A stretch of DNA of 52,441 nucleotides from Microcystis aeruginosa NIES-4325. Its GTDB lineage: Bacteria > Cyanobacteriota > Cyanobacteriia > Cyanobacteriales > Microcystaceae. The notes under the pieces are model-generated. The model searched no databases, had not been told where the DNA came from, and worked only from the letters and a program-made list of their open reading frames with translations. Shown one piece after another: positions 2,811 through 27,296 of the stretch. The position numbers and the translations under genes are program-made. The stretch spans positions 1 through 52,441 of the forward strand of contig NZ_BJKP01000023.1 in the NCBI RefSeq assembly GCF_008974145.1, given 5' to 3'. Position 1 is the first letter of the stretch, and every line of letters begins with the position of its first letter.

Positions 2811-2876
2811 GGTGGTGCGTTACGACGGATTGTCACTTTCCAGTCAAAGCAGCAATTTTTGCCGTCTAACGCACCC
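2811..2876. repeat. Hairpin-forming repeat with GGTGCGTTA ends
   Basis: The stretch starts GGTGCGTTACGACGG and ends CCGTCTAACGCACC, giving inverted arms of about 14 nt with one or two mismatches around a 35-nt interior. Such GTGCGTTA palindromes are a common dispersed repeat in cyanobacterial genomes. The IS630 element begins two bases further on. Confidence 0.55.
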
Positions 2877-2878
2877 TA

Positions 2879-4125
2879 CTGGACTGTTTCAGCTAAAATA
2901 GTGCAATAGCTCGAACAAGCAGAGGACATTTTAATGGGAAGAGGTCGGCGAGATAAAGTCAATCTAACAGGGGAACAAAGAGAAAACCTCGAACAAATCA
3001 GTCGTAATGGCTATGCACCAGCTAAAAAAATTCTCCACGCTCGGATTTTGCTGATGTGTGACGAGGGAGAACAGGCGAAAAGAAAATGGACAGATGAAGA
3101 AATAGCCGAAGCTTTAGAGGTCCATAGAAACACAGTGGGACGTATTCGTCAAAGATTTCTTCAAAAAGGCGAAAAACCAGCATTAGAACCGAAATCGAGA
3201 AAAACTCCCCCCACTCCGGCAAAAGTTGATGGAGCCGCCGCCGCCCAAATCATTGCCCTGTGCTGTTCGGAGCCACCATCTGGCCGAGCCGAGTGGACAA
3301 TCCGACTATTAACCTCGGAACTCAAACAAAGACAAATTATCACCGAGATTTCCAGTCCAACGGTGTGGCGTACTCTAAAAAAAACCAATTACGCCCTTGG
3401 AAAACCCAAAGATACTGTATTCCGGAACAGGATTTAGCCCGATTTGTTGCCCAGATGGAAGTTGTCCTTGACCTGTATGGCACTCAGCCATCGGAAGAAG
3501 AACCGTTAATCGCGATGGATGAGGCATCAAAGCAACTACTTGGAGAAGTTTACCCCCCGATACCCATGCAACCTGGACAAGATAAAAAAGAAGACTATCA
3601 CTATAGTCGTGAAGGGGTTCAAGCCTTGTTCCTGTTTTTTGACCCCCATCGAGGATGGAGACGGGTGAGTAACCGAGATAGTCGAACCCGAATAGATTGG
3701 GCAGAAGAAATTCGTCAATTATTGGATGTGGACTATCCAAAGGCTCGAAAAGTCAAGCTCGTCTGTGATAATCTGAACACTCATAACATAGCCTCGCTTT
3801 ATGAAGCATTTCCAGCACCCGTTGCTCATCGTTTAGCTAGAAGACTGGAAATTTATCACACACCTCGTAATGGTAGCTGGTTAAATGTAGCCGAAACTGA
3901 ACTAAGCGTCTTATCGAGGCAATGTTTAGATAGAAGGATTTCTAGCAAGGAAGAACTGAAAAGGGAGATAGAAACATGGCAAAAAGAACGTAATCAGACT
4001 GCATCTACAGTCATATGGACGTTTACGACCAGCGATGCTAGGGTCAAGCTGAAACATCTTTATCCTGTGTTTGAGGAGGAGGAATCGGGAGAATCTATTG
4101 CACCAAATTAGCTGAAACAGTCCAC
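2879..4125 (+). mobile_element. Complete IS630-family insertion sequence, 1247 bp
   Basis: The ends are inverted repeats: left TGGACTGTTTCAGCTAA from 2880, right the complement ending at 4124, with 27 of 30 positions matching. TA is duplicated at 2877-2878 and 4126-4127. The single transposase gene fills the interior. Rejoining the flanks gives a continuous GCACCCTACG context. The element separates the DedA gene and its downstream hairpin repeat from the hsdR remnant. Both ends and the transposase look intact apart from the frameshift, so it may be active. Confidence 0.9.
2934..4111 (+). CDS. IS630-family transposase, expressed by -1 frameshift
   Basis: Two overlapping frames make up the transposase. 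The first (2934-3437) carries the helix-turn-helix region (EEIAEALEVHRNTVGRIRQR). The second (3260-4111), in the -1 frame, carries the DDE catalytic domain with IAMDEAS, VCDNLNTH and WLNVAETELS supplying Asp, Asp and Glu. A run of eight A at 3377-3384 lies where homology crosses from one frame to the other, a typical slippery site. The fused product would be about 392 residues, the usual size. A fixed frameshift mutation cannot be excluded, but the A run and otherwise intact reading support programmed slippage. Confidence 0.85.
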
Positions 4126-4171
4126 TACGTTTTACTTGACGGTGGGAGTATATCAATGTCTTGAGAGAACC

Positions 4172-12921: not shown

Positions 12922-14184
12922 ATGCGGGTAACTCTAAAATCGGCCTTGAGTGATAGTCATATCGACGCTAATCAAAGCAGCAGTCAACGTCAACTGATGC
13001 TATCGATCGCCGCCACCAGTGAACAGATCAACACAAATTTACCAATTAATCTTTGTTTAGTTCTCGATCATAGCGGTTCTATGCAGGGAAAACCCCTAGA
13101 AACGGTCAAAAAAGCGGCTTTAAGTTTAATAGAATCCCTCGGAGTTAATGATCGTCTCTCGGTGATAGCTTTCGATCATCGCGCTAAAGTTATTCTTCCC
13201 TCCCAATCGCGACAGGATGATCTGACCTTAATTCGCTCAAAAATTCAACAATTACGAGCGGGAGGAGGCACGGCGATCGATGAAGGGATAAAATTAGGTA
13301 TTCAAGAAAGTTCTAGCGGCAGCAAAGGTTATGTATCTCATATTTTTCTGCTTACCGATGGTGAAAATGAACACGGAGATAATCAACGCTGTTTAAAATT
13401 AGCCGCAGTAGCAGCTGAGTACGGTATAACCTTAAATACCTTCGGTTTTGGCGATCATTGGAATCAAGATATACTAGAAAAAATTGCCGATATCGCTGGC
13501 GGAAGTTTATCCTATATCGAAAGACCCGAACAGGCTTTAATTGAATTTACTCGTCTGTTTAACCGTCTGCAATCTGTGCGGTTAACTAACGCTTTCCTGC
13601 AATTAGAATTAGATGCCCGGACTCATTTAGCCGACTTAAAACCCATCGCCCAAGTTGCCCCGGAAACCATAGAAATGAGCCTACAAAAAGAGGGCAATTT
13701 TTACATCACCCGTTTGGGGGATTTAATGATAGATGAAGAAAAAATTCTCCTCCTCAATCTCTATATTGACCAAATTCCCCCCGGTACTCACACCATAGCT
13801 AAGGTGAAGATTCGCTACGATGATCCCGCTTCCGGTCAAAAAGGGCTAGAAACTGCAACTTTTAGCCTTGATATCACCTCCCAAGCTCTCTATCAATCCC
13901 AATTAAACGAGCAAGTTCAGAAATCAATTCTCACTTTAGCCAAATATCGTCAAACCCAAATCGCCGAAGAAAAATTAAAACAGGGCGATCGAGCAGCCGC
14001 CGCCACCATGCTACAAACTGCGGCCAAAACGGCCCTACAATTGGGAGAGAAAAATGCCGCCACTGTCCTTCAAACGAATGCCACCCGTTTACAGGTGGGA
14101 GAAGAATTGAGCGAGGGGGATTTAAAGAAAACCCGCATTATTGCTAAAACAAGACTACAAACCGACGGAGAAGCAGGAAAATAA
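12922..14184 (+). CDS. von Willebrand factor type A domain protein
   Basis: The 420-residue protein has a vWA domain at about residues 40-215. The MIDAS motif is complete: DHSGSM near residue 49, a Thr in the AGGGTAIDEG segment, and LLTDGEN near residue 147. A beta-rich middle part and a C-terminal helical region (REE-like, with KLKQGDRAAAATMLQ) follow, as in cyanobacterial vWA proteins of unknown role. No signal peptide is evident, so it is probably cytosolic. The TPM-domain gene follows immediately on the same strand and may overlap its stop codon, which suggests co-expression. Its function is likely metal-dependent protein binding. Confidence 0.9.
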   Translation: MRVTLKSALSDSHIDANQSSSQRQLMLSIAATSEQINTNLPINLCLVLDHSGSMQGKPLETVKKAALSLIESLGVNDRLSVIAFDHRAKVILPSQSRQDDLTLIRSKIQQLRAGGGTAIDEGIKLGIQESSSGSKGYVSHIFLLTDGENEHGDNQRCLKLAAVAAEYGITLNTFGFGDHWNQDILEKIADIAGGSLSYIERPEQALIEFTRLFNRLQSVRLTNAFLQLELDARTHLADLKPIAQVAPETIEMSLQKEGNFYITRLGDLMIDEEKILLLNLYIDQIPPGTHTIAKVKIRYDDPASGQKGLETATFSLDITSQALYQSQLNEQVQKSILTLAKYRQTQIAEEKLKQGDRAAAATMLQTAAKTALQLGEKNAATVLQTNATRLQVGEELSEGDLKKTRIIAKTRLQTDGEAGK

Positions 14185-14998: not shown

Positions 14999-15916
14999 TC
15001 ATTGAAACAAAATCCCAATTCCTAGCAAAGCAATCATCACCCCGAAAATCGCCCGCAAGTTAATCCGATCCCCCATCATGGCAGCGATCGGTAAGACAAA
15101 TAAAGGACTGGTGGCGGTGAGAGTTTGGGCAATACCCACAGGAGAGAATTTTAAAGCAGTTTGCTGTAACCAAATTCCTAAAAACGTACTGCCGAAAGCA
15201 GTGACAATAATAATAGCAATCAGACGCAATGACCAGTTAATTGGTGGTGATGATTCCTGACGGCGAAAAAACATCAGAATTAACACTATTACCGTCCCCG
15301 CTAACAGACGAAAAAGGGTACTCTGCAAAGAAGACATTCCCGACTGCACCAGTGCCTGACGAGATAAAACCGCCCCCACTGCTTGGGAAATCGCTGCAAT
15401 TAAAGCCCAGGCAATTCCTCGCCGCCAAGGACGTTGACTATTGATTTCGAGAGTTTTTTCGGAAATAACCCAAGCAACCCCGAAGATGGTCAAAATAATA
15501 CCAATATAAGCCGATATTTTCAGGGATTCCCCCAAAAAAGTCGCCGCCAGAATCGCCCCCAAGGCAGGCGAAAGGGTTTCTAACAGGAGGGTTTTTCGCG
15601 GTCCCAAATAATTAAGGGCGGTAAAATAGGCCGTGTCACCGATTCCTATACCAATTGCGCCACTTGTCAAGAGTATAAATACGGAACTTTGCTGATTAAT
15701 ATCGCGCCATTGTCCGGAAAGGGGCAGCGTCAGGGCAATTAAAGCGATCGCGACTACTCCTTTCAGAAAATTAAGCAATAAAGGCGGGATTTTCTGGCCT
15801 AATAGGCTATAAATCGCCGCAGAAATCGCCCAAAGCGCCGCCGCGCTCAAAGCCGCTATCTCTCCCGTTAAATTTTCACCGAGACTAAATCCGTTGAGCA
15901 TTATAGCAGTTTTCAT
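14999..15916 (-). CDS. EamA/DMT-family transporter
   Basis: The 305-residue protein has ten predicted membrane helices in two homologous halves, each an EamA repeat (first ALSAAALWAISAAIYSLLG, second ALIAAISQAVGAVLSRQAL). This is the drug/metabolite transporter superfamily of inner-membrane exporters for amino acids, nucleotide precursors or other small molecules; the substrate cannot be inferred. The conserved GPRKTLLLETLSPALGAI segment sits at the end of the first half. The stop codon lies 8 bp beyond the convergent TPM gene's stop, so read-through or antisense overlap of the two transcripts is likely. ATG 15916 is preferred. Confidence 0.92.
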   Translation of the reverse strand: MKTAIMLNGFSLGENLTGEIAALSAAALWAISAAIYSLLGQKIPPLLLNFLKGVVAIALIALTLPLSGQWRDINQQSSVFILLTSGAIGIGIGDTAYFTALNYLGPRKTLLLETLSPALGAILAATFLGESLKISAYIGIILTIFGVAWVISEKTLEINSQRPWRRGIAWALIAAISQAVGAVLSRQALVQSGMSSLQSTLFRLLAGTVIVLILMFFRRQESSPPINWSLRLIAIIIVTAFGSTFLGIWLQQTALKFSPVGIAQTLTATSPLFVLPIAAMMGDRINLRAIFGVMIALLGIGILFQ

Positions 15917-16252
15917 CAGAATGAGGCATGGGCAAGGGGCTTAAGTCCCTTGTTGGCAAAACTTGTCGATACCTTAGTAACGTCAAAAGCGCTATATATC
16001 TATCATCAATTGTTATGGTTTGAATTGAGAAAATCCTTCTTCCCTCTTGTCAAAATAACGGTGAAGTTGTGCGGCGACAGACAACCCTGGCACTTACCTA
16101 CAACCGATATTCGGTCCGCACCAACGAAGGGTTAGGCTTTAGATACAGCAACGCTCATTGATGATTCCGTCTCAGATCTCAAAATAAGATTAACTGATTG
16201 ACCTTAGTTTGACTCTCGACTAGACTAAGATTAGCTCTCTAACTTTAGTCTT
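15917..16252. other. Gene-free stretch between divergent genes
   Basis: CAAGGGGCTTAAGTCCCTTG at 15934-15953 is an imperfect palindrome able to form a short hairpin. The rest has no recognisable gene. TTGACC at about 16197 followed 17 nt later by TAGACT could be a weak promoter for the ATPase gene at 16253. The region marks the switch from housekeeping genes to the accessory island. Confidence 0.35.
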
Positions 16253-17743
16253 ATGCTCGAGATCGCAAAAGAAGACATCCTCTCCCGCCTTCAATTTGAT
16301 AATCCTTGGTGGGAGACAGACCGTAAGGGAAAAATAATCTATGAAGATACGCCACGGCGCAAGTACTTTGAGGCTTTTTCTCAAAACATCTTGGACACAA
16401 GTGTGCGTCGAGCAACAGTCTTGATGGGACCCAGACGTGTTGGTAAAACTGTCATGGTTTATCACACTATTCGTCTGCTCCTAGATTCTGGCATTAGTGC
16501 GGTAAATATTTTATATGTCTCTCTTGAAACTCCAATTTATACAGGACTTCCATTAGAGCGGATACTTAAGTATTTTCAGGAACTATTCAATCATGATCGC
16601 AATTCGAGGCTATTTGTCTTTTTTGACGAAATTCAATACTTGCGTGAGTGGGAAATTCATCTAAAATCCCTGGTTGATTCATTTCCAATCTGTCGATTTG
16701 TCGCTACTGGCTCTGCTGCTGCTGCTCTAAGGCTTAAAAGCACTGAGTCTGGTGCTGGTCGATTCAGCGACTATATCCTGCCACCGCTAACCTTTGCTGA
16801 ATATTTAATGTTTATAGGAAAAGAAAATGAATTAATAGAGACAAATGTCCATGACTCTGAAGATTCTAGTTATCCATCTAAGATCTATGAGTTTGTGTCT
16901 AAAGATATTGATCAGTTGAATAAGACTTTTATTAATTATTTGAACTTCGGTGGATATCCAGAAGCTGTCTTTTCTGAAACGATTCGACAGGATCCTGGGC
17001 AATATATTAAAAGCGATATCATTGACAAAGTTTTACTTCGAGATTTGCCAAGCCTTTATGGGATTAGTGATATTCAAGAACTGAATAGACTTTTCACAAC
17101 CCTGGCGTATAATTCAGGCAACGAAGTAAGTATCGAGGGGTTATCGCAATCCTCTGGTGTAGCTAAAAACACTATCAAACGTTACCTCGAGTATCTTGAG
17201 GCGGCATTCCTAATCCGCCGAGTAGAGAGAATTGATCAAAACGCTAAAAAGTTTAAGAGAGCAGTTTGCTTTAAAGTCTATTTAACTAATCCGTCAATGC
17301 GCGCTGCGCTATTTGGTCAGCTTGAAACAGACTCTAAGGCGATGGGAGCCATGACTGAAACCGCTATTTTTAGTCAATGGCAGCACAGTAAAATGATTGA
17401 GCTTTATTACGCACGATGGAAAACTGGAGAAATTGATATTGTACATTTAGATGCTGCCCATCAATCACCTTCTTGGATAGTTGAGGTTAAGTGGAGCGAT
17501 CGCACTCATAGTACACCTTCCGAACTGGACAACTGCATAGAATTTTTAAAAAAGAATCCAGGTATATCTCAACCGATCTTGGTGACAAGTAAAACTATTA
17601 GAGATGACAATTTTTTATACAAAGATATACGATTTCGCTTTGAACCCGCAAGTTTATATGCCTATGCTCTCGGTGCAAATATATTGCGAAATATTGACAA
17701 CAAGGTTAAGGGATCTCGTGCCAGGTCACTACCTCTTGAATAA
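16253..17743 (+). CDS. AAA-family ATPase with DUF4143 domain
   Basis: The 496-residue protein has an AAA_14 ATPase domain with Walker A GPRRVGKT near residues 62-69 and Walker B FVFFDEIQYL near 121-130, then a winged-helix-like segment (GLSQSSGVAKNTIKRYLEYL) and a C-terminal DUF4143 part ending in a restriction-nuclease-like beta stretch (GEIDIVHLD, SWIVEVKW). The D-x-n-EVK arrangement resembles a PD-(D/E)xK core, though catalysis is unproven. Such proteins are abundant and mobile in prokaryotes and often sit in accessory regions. It converges on the defence-like operon 300 bp away; a functional link is only suggested by position. Confidence 0.85.
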   Translation: MLEIAKEDILSRLQFDNPWWETDRKGKIIYEDTPRRKYFEAFSQNILDTSVRRATVLMGPRRVGKTVMVYHTIRLLLDSGISAVNILYVSLETPIYTGLPLERILKYFQELFNHDRNSRLFVFFDEIQYLREWEIHLKSLVDSFPICRFVATGSAAAALRLKSTESGAGRFSDYILPPLTFAEYLMFIGKENELIETNVHDSEDSSYPSKIYEFVSKDIDQLNKTFINYLNFGGYPEAVFSETIRQDPGQYIKSDIIDKVLLRDLPSLYGISDIQELNRLFTTLAYNSGNEVSIEGLSQSSGVAKNTIKRYLEYLEAAFLIRRVERIDQNAKKFKRAVCFKVYLTNPSMRAALFGQLETDSKAMGAMTETAIFSQWQHSKMIELYYARWKTGEIDIVHLDAAHQSPSWIVEVKWSDRTHSTPSELDNCIEFLKKNPGISQPILVTSKTIRDDNFLYKDIRFRFEPASLYAYALGANILRNIDNKVKGSRARSLPLE

Positions 17744-18044
17744 GAGTTGCTTGATATAGCCGTGATAGGTATGCCTAACAGTCTAGTTATGCCCGTCTTT
17801 GCTTGTGAGGTTAATGTAGGTTAGCAGTTCATTAAGCTTGTTTTTCAGATTTGGGGATGTCATAAGCGGGTTGTAAACTTCTCCTGCTTAGGGTTGCCAA
17901 ACATAACTAGGACTAAAGGAGCGTAATACTGGCAATATTCTTAGTTCTCGTTCGCTTGGCTTTGCTAAAACCAATCCATAGGATAGATAAGTTAAATAAT
18001 TCTTCGAGAAGCTCACTGTAAGATCGCTAAAGAAATTTTTTAAA
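17744..18044. other. Gene-free stretch between convergent genes
   Basis: No coding frame is credible. AGTCTAGTTATG near 17780 and the complement of CATAACTAGGACT near 17900 form inverted arms of about 12 nt, which might be the ends of a short non-autonomous element. No clear terminator with a T tract was found for either gene. Confidence 0.3.
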
Positions 18045-20423
18045 TTAATCGATTTCAATCATATTACTTATTTGCTCTTGGGTGGCAGAGCCGTCAAGTA
18101 ACTGTTCAAAGAATTGATTTAGCGACACGTCAATATTAGCTTTTCTGGATCGAATTGGATTTGGCACTAATTGCTCGCATAGTTGTTTAGATTGAGCATA
18201 CGCAGGAGAACCTTGCTCAACAAAGTGAGGATCAATTTCACGAAAAGTAAGTAGATAAATTAGAGAAATTAGTGCATCTCTTAGATAATTGTGATCTCTA
18301 GAAACATTTAATGTAAGGCAATGGGTTAGTATCTCTGTGAAGTGCTGACTAAAAACTTCGAGCGATAAGCAATCACTCTCAGGGTTTGCATACCACAATA
18401 GTATCCTTGCGTATCCCCAAATGTAATCATCTACTTTATAAAACTCTTTTTTATGATATTTAGATTTTATATTAAATAAATACCAAAAAGCTTTTCTTCT
18501 TTGATTAGTACATGACATTCTAGCAATATTGTGTAGGTGAATACTATAGATATTGCGAATATTTTTTAGTAGTAAATTTCCATAATAAATTTGATCTGGA
18601 TAATACAGAAAATCTAGATTTAGACAATTTGAAAACGCAAAACTTTTTCCTAAAATCTGAAATATGTTTTTATAAATATCTCTATAATTAGATTTTATAT
18701 TTTCCAGAAACTCGTTTATTCTCTTGTCAATTTTTTCATAATTTTTGGTAAAATTTTCTAGATTCTGATTTTTATCTTTGTCATCTATTACATACACCTC
18801 TAATCCATTGTTGCTTTCGTTCTCAATATTGCTATAGTTATTAATAAGATTTAGAAAAGAGCGAGTAACCGAAATTAGAGAATCAATATTATTTTGGCTT
18901 GCTGTATCTGTAATATATTCATTTATTGTTCGAGTAAAATCTGATAAAGTTATTGGAATTTGAATATCCTGTGTTTTAAGAATATTAATGAATCTTTGTG
19001 ATTTGTTGTTGCGAAATGTCAGAATTGCTTGTATTGAAATAAAGCCTAATGTATCTGAGATTGCGAGTTCTTCACGGTCAATTAATTTAGAATCAAGTAT
19101 CCGATCATAATTATCTAATATTTCTAACTTGGGCATAAGACCTGGCTTAAGACGAAAGCGAATTTTTATGTCTAGGTTAGGAGTCTGATCAAGGTATTGA
19201 TTTTCAATTTTGTAAATCTGCTCTACACCTGTTTCGTTATCTAAAAACGGCTCGTCATTAATCCGAAATGGTAGAGTTACATCCTTAGTTCTTAGTGGGA
19301 AATTCTCTTCTAATTTTCCATCTTTTAGGTATTGACCATATATAGTAGCTTCTTGTTCTCCTTCATAACAAATTTTATCTGGCAAGCTGATTTCAATCTC
19401 TTTACCTTCTCTTTTCACAAAGAAGCTAATGCGATCTAATTGTTGTCCATATAATGCGAAGTTATTCCCTAGCTTTCGTTGCCAGATTTTGGAGAAATTA
19501 TTTACACTAAGATCTAAAACCAGTAAGTTTTCGTGAAATTGTTGCTCTAATACTCTTTTAACGCTTGGCAGTTTCGCATAACTACTGAGTAAAACAATGT
19601 GATAGTTTTGGTTTTCACTGATAACTTTATTTAGATCGTCGATAGGACAGTGGCGATAAATTATACCCTCAAGATTTGTTCGAGATAAATTATAGGAATA
19701 GAAACGATGATTAATTTCTATAATCAAAGAAATATACTCGGAAGAACTAAATTCAATAACTTTATTTTGGAAAAGATTAATTTTTTTAATGTAATTACAA
19801 ACTTCTAAAAGGTTATTTGGATCAAGTTTTAAGTCTTGGACAATTTTATTGGCGATCTCTAAACAAATCGAATTGTATATTTTCTCGTAAGACTGAGATA
19901 ATTTGAGAGCATCATATTTTTTAAGCGATCGCGTATCAATAATCGGAATAGGATAGGGAGCGTTACCGTAATTTTGAAATGTGAGGGGAGTAATTTGGGA
20001 TGGGGTAAAGCTATCGAGATCGTAAATAACTAATGGTTTATCTGAGTGAGTAAATTGCTGTAGTTGTTCTACATAACTCCAGTAGCGATAGACATTGGCA
20101 TAGATATAACGGGATTGTAGCGATCGCAAAACCAGTGAATTTGCTTCTCTAACAATAAATATTTGCTCTGAGGAATTATCGGGCAATGTTAGACCGATAT
20201 TTTGTTGTGGTAATTGACTCTTGCGCGGGGTGAGGGTTTTGGGTTGAGCGATCGTGATTGCAGGAATTGGTAAAAATGACTGAGATTGGTGACGGTTACA
20301 AAAATCTCGATATGCTAAAGGCAAACCGTTTGGATTGGGAATTAACTTTGCGGGATCTTCTACAAATAAATGAGCGTATTGGCAGCATTCAATATAGGAT
20401 TCTAGATTGATTAATTTAGTCAC
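18045..20423 (-). CDS. Uncharacterised 792-residue protein, possibly a degenerate Hsp70/actin-fold protein
   Basis: I do not recognise a named family. Several segments fall in the order seen in an Hsp70 nucleotide-binding domain. LVIYDLDSFTPSQITPL near residue 130 sits where Hsp70 has the DLGGGT phosphate-2 loop. LSRTNLEGIIYR near 250 matches the ITRxxFE segment. HIVLLSSYAKLPSVKRVLEQ near 275-295 matches the VLVGGSTRIPxVQ adenosine motif. FALYGQQL matches the AxAYGAA end. Glycines needed for ATP binding are replaced and no N-terminal DxGTT is seen. A beta-rich part (about 330-450) and a helical C-terminus follow. The start is GTG 20423, overlapping the PLD gene by 8 nt; it is the last gene of the five-gene operon. 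Confidence 0.75.
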   Translation of the reverse strand: MTKLINLESYIECCQYAHLFVEDPAKLIPNPNGLPLAYRDFCNRHQSQSFLPIPAITIAQPKTLTPRKSQLPQQNIGLTLPDNSSEQIFIVREANSLVLRSLQSRYIYANVYRYWSYVEQLQQFTHSDKPLVIYDLDSFTPSQITPLTFQNYGNAPYPIPIIDTRSLKKYDALKLSQSYEKIYNSICLEIANKIVQDLKLDPNNLLEVCNYIKKINLFQNKVIEFSSSEYISLIIEINHRFYSYNLSRTNLEGIIYRHCPIDDLNKVISENQNYHIVLLSSYAKLPSVKRVLEQQFHENLLVLDLSVNNFSKIWQRKLGNNFALYGQQLDRISFFVKREGKEIEISLPDKICYEGEQEATIYGQYLKDGKLEENFPLRTKDVTLPFRINDEPFLDNETGVEQIYKIENQYLDQTPNLDIKIRFRLKPGLMPKLEILDNYDRILDSKLIDREELAISDTLGFISIQAILTFRNNKSQRFINILKTQDIQIPITLSDFTRTINEYITDTASQNNIDSLISVTRSFLNLINNYSNIENESNNGLEVYVIDDKDKNQNLENFTKNYEKIDKRINEFLENIKSNYRDIYKNIFQILGKSFAFSNCLNLDFLYYPDQIYYGNLLLKNIRNIYSIHLHNIARMSCTNQRRKAFWYLFNIKSKYHKKEFYKVDDYIWGYARILLWYANPESDCLSLEVFSQHFTEILTHCLTLNVSRDHNYLRDALISLIYLLTFREIDPHFVEQGSPAYAQSKQLCEQLVPNPIRSRKANIDVSLNQFFEQLLDGSATQEQISNMIEID

Positions 20424-22101
20424 GGTTTGAGCGTAGGTTTTGAGTTTGTTGAGTAATCAGTCTAATTTCTTGAGGATCGGTGGTTCTGTAGGTCAAATCC
20501 AGTAATGGATTGGGGCTAAAAGCAAAATCTTGAGAGCCAAGATAAGCCACTTGAGAGCCAATTATAATGATTTTGGCATGAAGATTAAGGATTCGTCGCC
20601 TAGTTTGTAAGTTTGTAGCATCGTAATTTCCGTAAAAAATGCGATTGCGAGGGTTAGTGAGCAAATTAAGTTGTGGTGGTAGCGGTTGAAAGTTTCTTGT
20701 GTATATCTGAATTTCTTGCCCAGCAAAATTCTGGAGTGAAAGTAATAGATCTTGTTTGAAAGCATGGTGATCGAGAAAGCGATCACTCTGAGGGGGCAAT
20801 CCGCTAATTTTTTCAAGACTTTCGTTACAAAAGCCATTAGGTGAAGGTATAGATTGAGATGTGGTTTGGTGCGTCCATAGGTAGCGGAAATATTCAACGA
20901 GAAACTGATGTTCTGATGTATTCTGCCATAGCATTCCTGCTTCTCCGTTGCGTTCAAGACTACCTCCTGTAAGGTTACAGGAACCCAGATAAGCTGATTG
21001 TTCGCTAATGTAAGTTTTGATGTGGAAGTTACCACTTCTAAAACCTAAGCCAGCTTTTCTCAACATTGCTAAGCACTTACGCTTTTTGAGAGCGGAATTA
21101 GCGTAATCTAGATCGCTGACTCTTTGTCCATCCATATTACTATCGACTCGATCTTGCACTTCATTACTAAAATCTGTGAGAATCCAAATAGGGATTTGTT
21201 TTGATTTTTCGGCAATCATTTGTATGATCGCTTGATCTTCAAGGCGATAACTACAAATCAAGAGAAACTTTTGAGCGCTACTAATTAATTCTTCTAAAGT
21301 TTGACGATGAATACCTCTACCAATTTTTATATCTGTTTTAGCTGTGATATTCGCGATAGTTAGATCGCTAATAATTACTTGTTCAGGATATCTAGCACGA
21401 TAAGCCATGACAAGCTTTTGAACAGTTTCTGTAAGTTCATCACTAGGAAAATTATTTTCAGACTCACTGCGGAGAATATGAATAGCTCTTTGTAAAGCCT
21501 GATGCAGCTCATTAGGTTGCAGCCAAGCCGTACAATTATTAGGCAATGGAATAGCAAATAGCTCAGGATTTTTACTGCGAAGTACCAGATTTAGAGCTTT
21601 TAGTGGATGATTTTGTATGAACTGACGCAAGTTATTAATGGCTTCAGTTTGGATATTTTGGATAGTTGGATTAGATACGTTTTTGAGTGGAATTTCATAC
21701 TGATAAGTACCTTCATAACGATCACCAAAATTGCTAGGAATTTGTGGATCGTCATATTCTAGATTCTTAGCAAAATTTCTAGTTAGCTGAGTACTGACAA
21801 ATCGGTATTTAAATTGCTGTGATGTCAACTCACTGGAATTTTGTATGAACGGACGTAAAGTTTGATCGGCAAGTAAAGGTACTCGCCCTGATGTTTGCTC
21901 CATCAGATGAGTAACAGCATTAACGGGTAAGAAATTGAGTCCAAAAGATTGGTGAACTGCGGGTAAGTGATAGCGTTTTTGGTCGGTAGCGATCGCCCGA
22001 AAATCTGTCAATAGATTGGCTAATGATGTTTGAGCAACTGTGCGCCCATCATCAGCGAGACGTTCGTAATAACCTGTAACTTCCCAAAAGATTTGCATCA
22101 T
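20416..22101 (-). CDS. Phospholipase D-fold protein (probable nuclease component)
   Basis: The 561-residue protein has an N-terminal region of about 260 residues that I cannot assign, then two PLD (HKD) half-sites. The first, near residue 358, reads HIKTYISE with GSCNLTGGS after it. The second, near 505, reads LHAKIIIIGSQ with LGSQDFA. His and Lys are present in both, but the Asp of HxKxxxxD is Glu in the first and Gly in the second. PLD-fold proteins in defence loci are usually nucleases; activity here is uncertain. ATG 22101 follows the helicase stop with no gap, and AGGAGGG inside the helicase end is a strong ribosome binding site. Confidence 0.85.
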   Translation of the reverse strand: MMQIFWEVTGYYERLADDGRTVAQTSLANLLTDFRAIATDQKRYHLPAVHQSFGLNFLPVNAVTHLMEQTSGRVPLLADQTLRPFIQNSSELTSQQFKYRFVSTQLTRNFAKNLEYDDPQIPSNFGDRYEGTYQYEIPLKNVSNPTIQNIQTEAINNLRQFIQNHPLKALNLVLRSKNPELFAIPLPNNCTAWLQPNELHQALQRAIHILRSESENNFPSDELTETVQKLVMAYRARYPEQVIISDLTIANITAKTDIKIGRGIHRQTLEELISSAQKFLLICSYRLEDQAIIQMIAEKSKQIPIWILTDFSNEVQDRVDSNMDGQRVSDLDYANSALKKRKCLAMLRKAGLGFRSGNFHIKTYISEQSAYLGSCNLTGGSLERNGEAGMLWQNTSEHQFLVEYFRYLWTHQTTSQSIPSPNGFCNESLEKISGLPPQSDRFLDHHAFKQDLLLSLQNFAGQEIQIYTRNFQPLPPQLNLLTNPRNRIFYGNYDATNLQTRRRILNLHAKIIIIGSQVAYLGSQDFAFSPNPLLDLTYRTTDPQEIRLITQQTQNLRSNRD

Positions 22102-23517
22102 TTAACCCTCCTCAATTGCAATATCTCGTACAAAGTGGAAATCAGAGCCTAGAGCATCAAAGGTATTTTGATAATATTCCCAATCACCAATTATGGTAAT
22201 TTTATCCCTAGCTCTCGTTAAAGCTAAACGGATATCTGTTAAATTAGGCTGGCTCGATTCAGATTTATCACAAACAATCCATAAAGTTTGACATTCTTTT
22301 CCTGTCCAATCTTGAACAGTGCTAATAGTCGAGTTGGACAAATAGGGGATTTGTTGTAGGCGATCGCGTAGCTCTGATGAAAAAGTGAGAACACTAGACT
22401 GTTGATCAGGAAAGCTTTCTAGGGATTGCTGTAATAATTTAGGGATTTGTTCAGCAGTTTTGATATTGAGCCAATTTAAACGATGTTCTCCTTGAGATAG
22501 TGGACTGTGCTTGTGACTAGATGGTGTATAAGGCGTTGGTTGCATTGGATATAATGCGGGGAAAATCTTATGAGCTAAATCGGGATGAAGTCGATGATTT
22601 TCGGCCAGTTGTAACCGATAGGCGGGGGATAGATTTTGAAATAGTCTGCTGAATAGATTTATGGTTTCTGTTAATTCTCCAAGTAATAGAATTTTCTTAG
22701 CGCGGGTAGCGATCGCTTGCAATGTTGAGTCATTAAGATAGTGACTATCTTCAACAATGACTAAATCAAAAGTTCGCTCTCCTAAAATCGCTAATTGATT
22801 GCTCAGACATAATATCGGTGCTTTGATATGAGGTAAAGCCGCATCAAGGATTTGCTCAATGGCATGATCCGAAAGCGTTGTATAGTCTTGATGCAGACGC
22901 TCTCTTTGTTCCAATAAAGTTTCTGATTTGCTTAGTCGATAGACTAAAAGCTCTTGCCGTTTTGGATGAATATTAGGAAATATTTCGGCGACTGCTTGGG
23001 TTAGTTGTTGGATTTTTGCTAATGAATCTTCTTCACGAAGTAACCTTAGCCAAAATTGACGATTGCGCTTTATTTGTAATTCTTCAAAGAGCGAATCTTC
23101 TAGCCAATGGGGAGGTAAAAAATCTAGTTTTGGTTCAGCGACTTGTTGCCTGAGCCATGTCTTCACATTTTGCCGATAGTCGCGATCGCTGGTAATTTGT
23201 AAAGGTGGTAAAGGAAGGTTTTCGTAACGATTGAAAGTACTGGCAAAGGGAACAACAACTAAAGTAGATCGTTGATGGGCGATCGCAGTTTCCAGAGATG
23301 CTAATGCAATTTCCGTTTTGCCACTGGCGGGTGTACCTGCGATCGCTACTAGAGGAGCATTAGACAAGGCAAGTTCTACTGCTTCTCTTTGTTTTTTACG
23401 AAAGGGAAAAGAACTCATAGAATCAGGTAGATTTAATTCAGCGCGTTCTCGAATAAATCTACTTGGCTCACTCAGTACAGTTTCGATTACTTGAAGGACT
23501 AAACTCATGTTATCCAT
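22102..23517 (-). CDS. UPF1-like superfamily 1 helicase
   Basis: The 471-residue protein has the SF1 motifs in order: Q motif FRKKQREAVELAL near 39, Walker A GTPASGKTE at 61-69, a Walker B variant FDLVIVEDSHYL near 254, motif III ILLLGE, motif IV LAENHRLHP, motif V STVQDWTGKECQTL and motif VI RLALTRARDKITIIGD near 434. The Q motif, GTPxSGKT and TVQxxxGxE pattern place it in the UPF1-like SF1B group, which includes RNA and DNA helicases. It is short for the group, with no added nuclease domain. ATG 23517 overlaps the previous gene by 13 nt; ATG 23508 would give an ATGA overlap typical of translational coupling. Confidence 0.85.
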   Translation of the reverse strand: MDNMSLVLQVIETVLSEPSRFIRERAELNLPDSMSSFPFRKKQREAVELALSNAPLVAIAGTPASGKTEIALASLETAIAHQRSTLVVVPFASTFNRYENLPLPPLQITSDRDYRQNVKTWLRQQVAEPKLDFLPPHWLEDSLFEELQIKRNRQFWLRLLREEDSLAKIQQLTQAVAEIFPNIHPKRQELLVYRLSKSETLLEQRERLHQDYTTLSDHAIEQILDAALPHIKAPILCLSNQLAILGERTFDLVIVEDSHYLNDSTLQAIATRAKKILLLGELTETINLFSRLFQNLSPAYRLQLAENHRLHPDLAHKIFPALYPMQPTPYTPSSHKHSPLSQGEHRLNWLNIKTAEQIPKLLQQSLESFPDQQSSVLTFSSELRDRLQQIPYLSNSTISTVQDWTGKECQTLWIVCDKSESSQPNLTDIRLALTRARDKITIIGDWEYYQNTFDALGSDFHFVRDIAIEEG

Positions 23518-25043
23518 CCTCGAAAAGCTTCACAGAAATGATTAGTTAAAAATGTCATTCCTTCTTCAAGATTTTCATCAATAGGATTGGGTAATTTCCA
23601 TATTTTTATCTGACTATTGCTTGCCGCTGTATCATTAATTACAGAAAGATTTTCATATAGATAAAGGCAAATTACCTCCTGTTGATCCTGTGCCATTGAT
23701 TTTAAAATTGCATTGCTTGGCTTATACCAAAAAATCCAGATTGGCAATGGCAATTCATAGTGCTTTGGTCTTTCTAATAAATTTGTAGTAAAGAATTGCA
23801 TCTTTACTTTTAGTTCTAAATCCCCTGACTTGGGGTTAGTCGGGTGAATAATTTCAAAAGTAAAAGCTGCCGTTTGTAATATGCAATCAATGATTAGTGG
23901 TAAATCCATCAATAAATAGCGACCATAGTTTGGCACACCTGAAACATTTACCGCTGCAGTAGGACGAATATAACTTCCCTCAATATTTAACAGCGCCGCA
24001 ACTAATAGAACTGTTACCACATCTACTAACAGTCCTTGACGGAAGCCCCAAATATTTTCTTTTTCACTTCGCCGCTTTAAATAATCGAGATAGGCTTGAT
24101 AGAAGCTGCGATAGATGGGATTTTGTTGTAAGACATAGTTAGGTTTGATCGCGAAAACATCGGTACGGGGAATAGTTTGTACGCTTGGCTCTTGACGAAA
24201 GCGATCAATAGCTCTTTCTAAACGTTCAGCCTCTCCTATTCCTTTATATTCTCCACATTCGCGATGTAATAGACTGCAAAAACCTTTAAGAAAGCGATTT
24301 TCGGGGGTATTAAAGTTTTGATAGCGCTGAATCCCCATTAGTTCCTGTCTTGCGCCTGCCTTTTCGATCGCATCATGTCCAGGACGACGGACATAATCTC
24401 TTAAACAGTAAGCATCCATTTCCTGAATGCGTCCGAGGGGGATCATTTCTGCTTTGCGATTGAGTTGCGATCGCAATTTTGGCGCAATTATTTCTAATTT
24501 ATGACGTAGTTCATAGCGGCGGTTGAGAGCAAGCACTAACGGTAATTGTGCATCTTCTTGACTTAAATCAAGTAAAAGCTGAGGAATATTAATTAAAAAG
24601 CATGGGTATTGTGAACTATGTTTATCCTCTCCCAACAAAGCGTCAAATAGCCCGATAAATAGAGCGATCATATCGGCTGTTATGTGATCGTATCGTTGAT
24701 CAAGCTCTTTTTTAAATTTCTCAACTTCGTTTTCATCATTACTAATTTGTGTCGCATCTAATACTTCGTCAGCTAAATTTAACTCAATTATTGCTCCTGT
24801 TTTTACCTCAATACTAAGCCTCTGAGCAATTGCCTTTTGTTGTTCCCAGTCTGTAATTTGCACCCAAGGAAAGCCAATTTCATAAATACTAGGTTGACGT
24901 TGCATCAAAAATGGATATTGTTTGGTAAGCTCTTCGTCATCTTCTAATACTAAAAAAGGACGATCTCTTCCGCGCAATTGAGGTAATCCATTTAAACAGG
25001 ACTTATCTTGCAAATAGTCGGTGAGGTTAGCGTAGATTAACAT
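23505..25043 (-). CDS. McrC-like/DUF2357 family protein
   Basis: The roughly 512-residue protein has the DUF2357 hallmark LGRIQEMDAYCLRDYVRRP followed by EKAGARQELMGIQRYQNFNT and PENRFLKGF near residues 200-260, as in COG1700-type partners of McrB-like ATPases. The C-terminal part is expected to hold a PD-(D/E)xK fold; IIDCILQTAAFTFEI and DLELKVKM could supply Asp and ELK, but this is weak. In type IV restriction the McrC-type subunit is the nuclease driven by McrB. ATG 25043 is preferred because AAGG precedes it; an in-frame ATG at 25121 would overlap the upstream gene by 31 nt. It is the second gene of the operon. Confidence 0.8.
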   Translation of the reverse strand: MLIYANLTDYLQDKSCLNGLPQLRGRDRPFLVLEDDEELTKQYPFLMQRQPSIYEIGFPWVQITDWEQQKAIAQRLSIEVKTGAIIELNLADEVLDATQISNDENEVEKFKKELDQRYDHITADMIALFIGLFDALLGEDKHSSQYPCFLINIPQLLLDLSQEDAQLPLVLALNRRYELRHKLEIIAPKLRSQLNRKAEMIPLGRIQEMDAYCLRDYVRRPGHDAIEKAGARQELMGIQRYQNFNTPENRFLKGFCSLLHRECGEYKGIGEAERLERAIDRFRQEPSVQTIPRTDVFAIKPNYVLQQNPIYRSFYQAYLDYLKRRSEKENIWGFRQGLLVDVVTVLLVAALLNIEGSYIRPTAAVNVSGVPNYGRYLLMDLPLIIDCILQTAAFTFEIIHPTNPKSGDLELKVKMQFFTTNLLERPKHYELPLPIWIFWYKPSNAILKSMAQDQQEVICLYLYENLSVINDTAASNSQIKIWKLPNPIDENLEEGMTFLTNHFCEAFRGWIT

Positions 25044-25090
25044 TGGCTGATTACCTTGATTGTTGTAAATTGATGTTTGTAAATTCAACC

Positions 25091-27166
25091 TCAATCTTGG
25101 GGATACACCATACCTTTCCATTGGAATTGTCCATACTGCCCCTCACGCGCTTTCTTAAAAGCTTGATTGAGTGGCTCATCATTAAGTTGCGACAGTAGAG
25201 ATTCCATCTTATCCAATGCTTCTTTCACATTTTTTTCTTCAACCATTACCCCGCGCAGTTTGGGTAAAAGCTTCTGACCAAATTGATCGGCGATCGCCTG
25301 ATTACGAATCACCTCATCGCGATCGGGATTGGGATAATTACAAACATATTTGGTAAATGCCTGAAACACCCGATGGGCAAAAGGACGACCCAATGATTCC
25401 ATAATGTCATTGGCTTCATCTACATAGTGTTTAACTTTTTTGGCTAAATCAGGGCTTGGCTCTTTTGTCCATCCCTGAAAAGCATCCCAAGATACATAGG
25501 TAGGTATTGGAGGACTTGTTTGCTTATGCCCACACAATTGCAAATCAGGTGGACGACCAAAGGTAAGAATATTGGCTCGATCTAGCACTTTATCGGAAAG
25601 CGATTGGGTAGTCTCATCTTCATTCATTGTGCCAACAAATAAAAATTCATTAGGAATAAGAACTTGCTTTTGTTCATCTTTTAGCTTTAAACTGCCTGCT
25701 TCCAAGTCTAGGTATGTTTTCTTACTTCTTCTAGTTTCCAACTTAGAAAGGAAATCACTGAAATAGTATTCCACTCTTGCAAGGTTCATTTCATCAAGCA
25801 AAACCATAACTATTCTTCCCTTAAGATTAGATTGATGCTGATGTTGATATAAATAACGCATCAAATCTGTAGGTTTATACTTTTTCTCAACGTAATTGTA
25901 AAAACCTTGTAAGTCTTGTGGAGAATCCCATCGAGGTTGTACAGGTAACATTACCAATGGCGCACCGATAAAATTAGCATAGGCTTGGGGAAGCTCGCTT
26001 TTACCTGTACCACTAATGCCAGCTAAAATTACTAAGGCTGAAATATCCTGTACTTTTAATGATGTATGGAAAGCTTTGACTGTACGTTCAGAGAAAATTA
26101 AACCCTTGCCATTCAAATATTGTCTAAAGAGTGTTAAAAATTCTGTCTCACTAGCAAAGAGTCTAGGCTGATTTGCAGCAAGTTCAATAGGCGTTTCTAG
26201 TGCTTGAAATGCCTGTTTAAAACCATTTTCAATTTCCTCAAGATCGCCTTTAGCTTCACGAATTTTCTTCTGAAATTCTTTTAACTCATTTTCTTTGGAC
26301 AAGATCTGCCCATCTAACAAGCTTTTCTCAGAATTTAATTGCTCAAGCTGACGTTTTAAACTGCCTAATTCCGAACGTTTAGTACGCAAGTCTGCATCTA
26401 AATTTTCGATCTGTACCCGCAGTCCATCAACCTGCTGCGCCTTTGTCTCCATCGTGCCGATTTCTGACAAAATGCGATCGCGCTCTTGTTCAAGCCGAGG
26501 AATTTCTGCATGTAAATGCTGCTGTTTAGTTTCTAGATTTTGAGCATCTTTACGCAGAGCATCATAGGTGCTACGGAAAAGTTCTAACTCTGCCGCTTGC
26601 TGATTGAGTTCGTGTAATCGTTCAGTCAGTCCTCTGACCTCTTCTTGCTTCTGCGAAAACTGCGAAGTCACCTCTTGCAAACCATCCCGTTGCTTTTCCC
26701 GTTCCGCAATCTGATCAATGATCGCCTGTAAACGCCCTTTATTTTCATTGATCTGTGTTTTTAATTCACCAATTTTCTGCTGACGTTGTTCCAACTCTTC
26801 TAGATTAGGGGGATTTTGCTGAACTAGCCTCACCCTTTCTTGTAAATCTTCTTCCTGTTGTTGAAGTTCGCTGACGTTTTGTCGCAATAATTCTCGTTGC
26901 CGTTGCAAATATTCTAGCTCTGCCCCAAAAGGTAAAGCTCGTTTTTGTCTTTCAATATCTTGCTTTAGCCGATCGCGTTCCTGTTCAAGCTTACCTTGTT
27001 TACTAGACTGTGACTGTATCAGCAAAGCAGATGTCGCAAAACCACTTGCCCCAGTTGCGATCGCTGCCACACCAGACTGAAGCCCCGAACCCCCAGATGC
27101 AATCACGACACCGCCAACAACAACGCCCGCAGCGATCGAAGGAATATGAAATAACAATAAATTCAC
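25091..27166 (-). CDS. McrB-like AAA+ protein with membrane anchor and long coiled coil
   Basis: The 691-residue protein has two Gly/Ala-rich hydrophobic segments at about residues 7-23 and 34-50, then about 270 residues of near-continuous coiled coil (55-325), then an AAA+ domain of McrB type. Walker A is GISGTGKS near 381, Walker B LLDEMNLARVEYYFSDFLS near 456, and the McrB signature appears as GTMNEDETTQSLSDKVLDRA near 512. McrB proteins are GTP-driven motors that switch on a McrC nuclease; GTP versus ATP use here is unknown. GTG 27166 is the only plausible start. It is the first gene of the five-gene operon and is divergent from nnr, with a 130-bp shared upstream region. Confidence 0.88.
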   Translation of the reverse strand: MNLLLFHIPSIAAGVVVGGVVIASGGSGLQSGVAAIATGASGFATSALLIQSQSSKQGKLEQERDRLKQDIERQKRALPFGAELEYLQRQRELLRQNVSELQQQEEDLQERVRLVQQNPPNLEELEQRQQKIGELKTQINENKGRLQAIIDQIAEREKQRDGLQEVTSQFSQKQEEVRGLTERLHELNQQAAELELFRSTYDALRKDAQNLETKQQHLHAEIPRLEQERDRILSEIGTMETKAQQVDGLRVQIENLDADLRTKRSELGSLKRQLEQLNSEKSLLDGQILSKENELKEFQKKIREAKGDLEEIENGFKQAFQALETPIELAANQPRLFASETEFLTLFRQYLNGKGLIFSERTVKAFHTSLKVQDISALVILAGISGTGKSELPQAYANFIGAPLVMLPVQPRWDSPQDLQGFYNYVEKKYKPTDLMRYLYQHQHQSNLKGRIVMVLLDEMNLARVEYYFSDFLSKLETRRSKKTYLDLEAGSLKLKDEQKQVLIPNEFLFVGTMNEDETTQSLSDKVLDRANILTFGRPPDLQLCGHKQTSPPIPTYVSWDAFQGWTKEPSPDLAKKVKHYVDEANDIMESLGRPFAHRVFQAFTKYVCNYPNPDRDEVIRNQAIADQFGQKLLPKLRGVMVEEKNVKEALDKMESLLSQLNDEPLNQAFKKAREGQYGQFQWKGMVYPQD

Positions 27167-27296
27167 AGATATTACTGATATTTTTTCTGAAACTAATTGT
27201 ACGATAGACTTGTTGCAAAATAAGAAAAAACGGCTAATTGGGAATTTTTCGGCAAAAAAGTTATCTAGACCTGTTAACAGGCAATTTATCCCTCGA
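27167..27296. promoter_or_regulatory. Divergent upstream region of the defence-like operon and nnr
   Basis: This AT-rich stretch lies between GTG 27166 on the minus strand and ATG 27297 on the plus strand and must hold promoters for both units. TTGCAACAAG on the minus strand (about 27217) is a possible -35 region but lacks a well-spaced -10 box. No operator palindrome was found, so control of the operon is unknown. Confidence 0.35.

Follow-up and report, generated by a model that had tools for sequence, protein, structure and literature searches.

The minus-strand operon described here, five genes in a window of 52,441 nt from Microcystis aeruginosa (the whole stretch of DNA that was analysed), is very probably a Type III-C CoCoNuT; it is a new member of an already described subtype of a predicted antiviral system and does not constitute a new subtype. 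All five ORFs of the initial annotation were found where it had placed them (Table 1), packed with three tight junctions and one gap: CnuB and CnuC are separated by 47 nt (with the CnuC start at 25043), CnuC and CnuH overlap by 13 nt, CnuH and CnuE abut, and CnuE and CnuD overlap by 8 nt. The encoded proteins also agree with it: one is McrB-like with a coiled coil, one DUF2357/McrC-like, one a helicase of the UPF1 type and one a PLD protein, in which two motifs are present, and the last has 792 residues. That annotation had gone on to call the operon CoCoNuT-like, with an accessory set that it could not match to a described subtype. The first part stands, for an operon that is CoCoNuT-type and cyanobacterial; the second does not, as the combination of PLD and Hsp70-like proteins had been published as Type III-C (Bell et al. 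2024, eLife, PMC11090510). Because that description fits the operon and its gene set, we dropped the reading as a new subtype.

Table 1 Features of the operon and of the unit shared with a second Microcystis genome.
Feature	Position	Strand	Description
Whole operon	18045–27166	−	Five ORFs; transcription order CnuB-CnuC-CnuH-CnuE-CnuD
CnuB	25091–27166	−	691 aa, GTG start; membrane-type hydrophobic hairpin at the N-terminus, then a long coiled coil and an McrB-like GTPase
CnuC	23505–25043 (ORF 23505–25121)	−	DUF2357 (McrC N-terminal domain); 512 aa with likely start, 538 aa for the ORF
CnuH	22102–23517	−	471 aa; UPF1-like SF1 helicase; Walker A and Walker B far apart
CnuE	20416–22101	−	561 aa; putative effector with two PLD HxK motifs (HIK...E, HAK...G)
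CnuD	18045–20423	−	792 aa, GTG start; residues ~320–792 homologous to CnuDs of other phyla
Unit shared with M. aeruginosa LEGE 91341 (G097)	17954–27202		93% match; different place in that genome

Identity of the five proteins

CoCoNuTs are predicted RNA-targeting restriction systems whose traits include an NxD instead of an NxxD GTPase motif in CnuB and an McrC homologue with DUF2357 (PMC11090510). Type III-C, found primarily in Cyanobacteriota, is described as comprising CnuB, a CnuC with an IG-like N-terminus and a retained but inactivated PD-(D/E)xK nuclease, a UPF1-like CnuH with a helical insertion after Walker A, a CnuE in which a distorted, elongated wHTH and a coiled coil accompany two PLD domains, and, as a protein of its own, an Hsp70/HEAT-like CnuD; TerY-P is absent (PMC11090510). 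The Microcystis operon has in common with this subtype the phylum, CnuB with an NxD GTPase, CnuC, CnuH, a two-PLD CnuE, a separate CnuD, and the absence of TerY-P, in that neither a kinase nor a PP2C (TerY-P) was found among the 12 flanking proteins scanned; these were mostly products of metabolic or transport genes, with no clear defence island. A VWA gene at 12922–14184 was considered as TerY and rejected; it is encoded on the opposite strand, at a distance from the operon and beyond the limits of the unit shared with G097.

Placement of the first two proteins in the McrB and McrC families held at the level of sequence, the AAA+ domain aligning with E. coli McrB and the second protein containing DUF2357. 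For CnuB, Pfam identified AAA_5 (2.2e-8) and PADLOC the candidate family PDC-M26A (4e-49), and models of SMC/Rad50-type coiled coils covered residues ~53–330, all under their curated cut-offs. The NxD motif reads MNEDE; it is present in the window, is invariant in all 10 rows of alignment A1, and was aligned to MNTAD of E. coli McrB. When the CnuB rows were searched with a pattern, it did not show MNEDE in L044, L107 and L109–L112. A GTPase profile of 10 rows matched E. coli McrB with a probability of 78.9, compared with 0.7 for reversed McrB, and a wider profile of 89 rows with a probability of 95.1 (the reversed control applies to the 10-row profile only). Neither the CnuB nor the CnuC profile retrieved an McrB or McrC chain from the PDB. 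CnuB can be aligned to McrB of E. coli K-12 through Walker A, Walker B and the sensor region, all of the McrB type, whereas McrB has NTAD (NxxD) where CnuB has NED (NxD). McrBC has, to our knowledge, no coiled coil, helicase, PLD protein or CnuD. A tree was built from 88 GTPase domains, and in it all 32 rows of cyanobacterial CnuB fell into a single clade (SH-aLRT 100) that includes the window; the tree came from a quick search, is separate from the published CnuB tree, is unsure in its deeper joins, and omits L024, which was too short, and L111, L112, L026, L059 and L070, whose stretch has no Walker A.

DUF2357 was detected in CnuC by Pfam at 2.9e-8, above the gathering score, and alignment to CnuC of other phyla by hhalign gave a probability of 100 over residues 143–526; the CnuC profile had no match to E. 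coli McrC (probability 0.1). CnuC probably starts at the ATG at 25043 and not at the first ATG of the ORF at 25121: matches began at query residue 26–27 in 6 of 14 places in genomes of the phylum, and at residue 27 in 8 of 13 loci, with the rest at 1, 18–25, 46 or 73 or fragmentary. No conserved ExK was seen near the C-terminus when the 22 rows of alignment A3 were inspected by eye (L047 reads ESK there); the nuclease region may be dead.

Helicase models of Pfam matched CnuH only under their cut-offs. The CnuH profile identified NFX1-type zinc finger-containing protein 1 as the best match in the PDB (E 2.6e-20), with SMUBP-2, SEN1, DNA2 and UPF1 among the further matches; Walker A is kept, and ~190 residues separate it from Walker B. 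In CnuE, Pfam identified PLDc_2 (1.9e-16), and an alignment of 11 rows shows no variation at the H and K of either HxK motif, alignments A2–A5 being made of chosen rows and not of every locus. The classical HKD motif has an aspartate, and its position in the window's CnuE is occupied by Glu in the first motif and Gly in the second. Against the PDB, the CnuE profile matched the virion nicking-joining enzyme (6e-4) and, more weakly, PLD3/PLD4.

The N-termini of CnuB and CnuD

At its N-terminus, CnuB has a hydrophobic hairpin rich in glycine and alanine, which in the window's protein has a hydropathy of 2.19 near residues 4–22. An N-terminus was termed membrane-type when the Kyte-Doolittle score of a 19-residue window in the first 110 residues reached 1.6; with duplicate records included, this held for 28 of the 38 CnuB rows from cyanobacteria and for 50 of the 56 from elsewhere. 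The internal control, the stretch between those first 110 residues and Walker A, passed in none of the 38 cyanobacterial rows and in one of the 56 others, and other ORFs at the same loci passed in 21 of 96 cases in cyanobacteria (a control still holding the duplicates L030, L031 and L038) and in 57 of 221 elsewhere. Ten cyanobacterial rows fell under the cut-off, six at 1.28–1.58 (one record being counted twice, as L019 and L038) and four below 1; among the rows of low hydropathy, the frame of L017 is broken, and the true start may be missing from L041, L044 and L046. Hydropathy predicts membrane insertion without proving it; on this prediction, CnuB appears to be anchored in the membrane.

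The same feature recurs outside cyanobacteria. The 54 non-cyanobacterial loci (L053–L108 without L059 and L070), considered together as Type III-B and similar and not sorted into the published subtypes, share with the Microcystis operon CnuC, an NxD CnuB with the membrane-type N-terminus (the 50 of 56 rows given above), and an ORF of >300 aa directly after CnuC (49 of 54), which was taken as CnuD. They differ from it in their CnuH-type helicase, which precedes CnuB in 31 of 54 loci, follows it in 5 and was undetected in 18, and which is much larger (1047–1182 aa in the three loci read), and in having a separate CnuA-like protein before CnuB (47 of 54). This CnuA-like ORF, directly upstream of CnuB, itself has a membrane-type start in 44 of 47 cases. 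Five loci were on viral contigs, four of them weak and one (L108) III-B-like, with CnuH, CnuB and CnuC in that order on a 62-kb IMG/VR contig classed viral. Beside another III-B-like locus, on the opposite strand, is a second, distant CnuB-like GTPase (L089, 2458–4104).

The Type III-A operon of the Raoultella plasmid NZ_AP025011.1 (L155), which a kinase gene precedes, resembles that of Microcystis in encoding CnuH, CnuE, CnuB and a DUF2357 protein together. It differs in that its DUF2357 protein has 1348 aa, as in the published CnuCD fusion (PMC11090510), and in that its CnuB is without the membrane-type segment, as are all five III-A-like rows (L155 and L156, so called by gene order, and L160, L161 and L162, so called only by likeness to the L155 CnuB). 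The membrane-type N-terminus of CnuB, present in most III-C and III-B-like proteins and in none of the five III-A-like ones, may be new. It is seen in the Microcystis operon and goes unmentioned for Type III-C in the main text of the defining paper, as far as that text was available, where Type II/III CnuB is credited with "only coiled-coils" (PMC11090510). A paper on YprA helicases mentions CoCoNuTs, and its accessible text does not contain the word 'transmembrane' (PMC12458937).

The second departure concerns the 792-residue CnuD, for which Pfam gave nothing credible and the PDB, like Pfam, chance matches only; five further CnuDs yielded one chance match in Pfam. By hhalign, III-C CnuD matched 28 CnuDs of other phyla with a probability of 96.1 (E 2.9e-9) over residues ~320–792, and the direct comparison to 20 alphaproteobacterial-type CnuDs gave 0.0. 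The split into sets of 20 and 28 was our own choice: all 48 together gave 94.3, and a comparison of one set with the other gave 100. Twelve controls, consisting of unrelated profiles and of shuffled and reversed columns, reached at most 1.5. The 28-row set also matched a profile of four Hsp70s encoded in the genome from which the window comes (probability 95.8, residues 2–409, mostly the nucleotide-binding domain), a further difference of Type III-B and similar loci from the Microcystis operon, while the 20-row set gave 0.7 against the same-genome Hsp70 profile. Residues 1–325 of III-C CnuD had no match to Hsp70 or to the N-termini of other CnuDs (0.1–0.4), and the part of the other-phylum CnuDs that III-C CnuD does match is the region after their Hsp70-like domain. 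Because its C-terminal two thirds match other CnuDs, we place the protein in this family; it is probably a CnuD (Hsp70/HEAT-related), with the Hsp70 label derived from those two thirds and from one subset of relatives. The published Type III-C has an Hsp70-type CnuD N-terminal domain (PMC11090510), which is undetectable by sequence in Microcystis CnuD. We give an even chance to the reading that the Hsp70-type nucleotide-binding domain of III-C CnuD was replaced or has worn beyond recognition, leaving a membrane-tethered complex of GTPase, helicase and PLD nuclease with a sensor of its own. The odd N-terminus of III-C CnuD may be new. The GC content is 0.31 over CnuD (18001–20000) and 0.38–0.54 across most of the window.

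These two features, the first third of CnuD unmatched to Hsp70 and the membrane-type segment of CnuB absent from the published main text as far as available (PMC11090510), are what would favor the new subtype proposed in the initial annotation. Both are common to the cyanobacterial homologues and so are not peculiar to the Microcystis locus, and the gene set, PLD effector, separate CnuD, lack of TerY-P among the scanned neighbors and phylum are all those of Type III-C. A new subtype is therefore highly improbable, and the operon is treated below as Type III-C.

Distribution, transfer and decay

Within the phylum, 14 of 386 genomes gave a CnuC match, with the window's own genome counted, as did 2 of 7 Microcystis tested. 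The five genes were detectable in order in 12 of these 14 loci; of the 12, L026 is decayed, and in L024 only a remnant of CnuD is left. A larger set of 36 cyanobacterial loci was assembled from the genome search and a contig scan (80 loci kept of 204 relatives) after five duplicate records were dropped (L030, L031, L038, L050 and L051, equal to L015, L016, L019, L025 and L024; they were likewise omitted from the tree and from the Walker A check of CnuH, but not from the hydropathy counts). The co-occurrence of the five genes extended to these other genomes: CnuB-CnuC-CnuH-CnuE-CnuD were on one strand in this order in 27 of 36 loci, fragments and remnants counted and some loci being cut by contig ends. 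Because the same order on one strand recurs at this frequency, the five-gene set is more than chance. By a length rule, all five genes are intact in 17 of the 27 loci, and 10 are broken or reduced. The pairwise divergences of the five genes correlate with r of 0.94–0.98 across 15 of the 17 intact loci (the near copies L021 and L043 were omitted by our choice), a correlation that shared descent alone would also raise. A branch of the cyanobacterial loci retains CnuB and CnuC (L025, L047) or CnuB only (L048, L049) without CnuH, CnuE or CnuD nearby, and no CnuD match was found in the genomes of these four. L026, L027 and L017 are decayed copies of the operon, with several genes broken or missing; such copies suggest that the operon is frequently lost.

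The operon of M. aeruginosa LEGE 91341 (G097) is 85% identical to that of the window in CnuE, 88% in CnuB, 93% in CnuC, 93% in CnuD and 97% in CnuH. The region of the neighboring NAD(P)H-hydrate gene was matched in all 12 Microcystis genomes searched (own included), near full length in 10 of the 11 others and over 114 bases only in G387; in G097, a different contig carries this gene, and the preceding 4 kb are unlike the window. The same unit is thus placed differently in two Microcystis genomes, with a patchy distribution and transfer.

Several other sequences border the unit. Beside the operon, an AAA_14/DUF4143 ATPase at 16253–17743, outside the unit shared with G097, matched the PADLOC candidate defence family PDC-S01 (3.2e-58). 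In another Microcystis genome (G390), ~1 kb separates this gene (16056–17779 of the window; L148) from a sequence almost identical to window positions 2868–4128, and the pair is perhaps a mobile element. A MITE-like repeat of ~96 bases at 15901–15998 has many copies in Microcystis genomes, and 250 bases by the operon end (17776–18025) have copies of 85–87% elsewhere in other Microcystis genomes.

A complete III-C operon is carried by the plasmid pSYSX of Synechocystis PCC 6803 (NC_005232.1, 11348–20500, SGL_RS01425 to 01445), where HMMs detected all five genes with E-values of 5.4e-137 or better. We take its CnuB gene, SGL_RS01425, to be slr6012, by gene counting. Proteomics of strain SAW041 gave ratios of 2.45–2.56 for Slr6012 (PMC4526308), which bear on CnuB through that gene count only; in the available text of a further paper, slr6012 is once written for a gene elsewhere named slr6102 (PMC7296061).

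The distribution also bears on whether the operon acts in defence. A membrane stress complex, or one for RNA or protein quality control and not for antiphage defence, would accord with the mostly ordinary neighboring genes, with the CnuB GTPase retained in loci lacking CnuH, CnuE and CnuD, with the lack of any match to CnuC among 50,697 phage records, and with the absence of a phage test of Type III-C among the literature matches listed. In these listed matches, no experiment on a III-C system was found, and the name CnuB occurred only in the defining paper and its preprint. We nevertheless consider such a role unlikely, as genes that are patchy, transferred, plasmid-borne and often decaying, and that include a nuclease effector, are typical of defence.

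Proposed mechanism and its target

For the operon as a Type III-C defence system, we tentatively propose a mechanism that, taken as a whole, is possible rather than probable. CnuB would be tethered to the membrane through its N-terminal hydrophobic hairpin, and its coiled coil would gather the complex. CnuC, its nuclease region apparently dead, would stimulate the McrB-like NxD GTPase ring of CnuB. CnuD would serve to recognize RNA that is viral or aberrant, or material bound to ribosomes, and GTP-driven activation through CnuB/CnuC turnover would couple this recognition to the helicase activity of CnuH. CnuH would then feed nucleic acid to CnuE, acting as a PLD nuclease that uses both HxK motifs, and invader or host nucleic acid would be degraded near the membrane.

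In PADLOC, the best match of CnuE was DrmC of DISARM (1.6e-11) and that of CnuH was MkoA (5.4e-9), where we take MkoA/MkoB to be Mokosh. These matches, and the PDB matches that act on DNA (DNA2 and the virion nicking-joining enzyme), would suit the same architecture with a DNA target, in which CnuH would work on ssDNA and the PLD domains of CnuE would cut DNA, giving membrane-bound restriction of incoming phage DNA; a membrane position would presumably also suit DNA entry. No conserved McrC-type nuclease motif was seen, however, and CnuD relatives and UPF1-like helicases have been taken as pointing to RNA (Bell et al., PMC11090510). A DNA target is thus a serious alternative to RNA, if a rather unlikely one. 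The RNA target that we prefer is a prediction following Bell et al. (PMC11090510) and the helicase family, as is the antiphage role.

The membrane-type N-termini of CnuB and of the CnuA-like proteins suggest where the machine works, and the membrane-type start of CnuB divides III-B/III-C-like from III-A-like systems, a division unsaid in the published main text as far as it was searched (PMC11090510). With a complete copy of the operon on pSYSX, the prediction is directly testable in a model cyanobacterium, Synechocystis PCC 6803.
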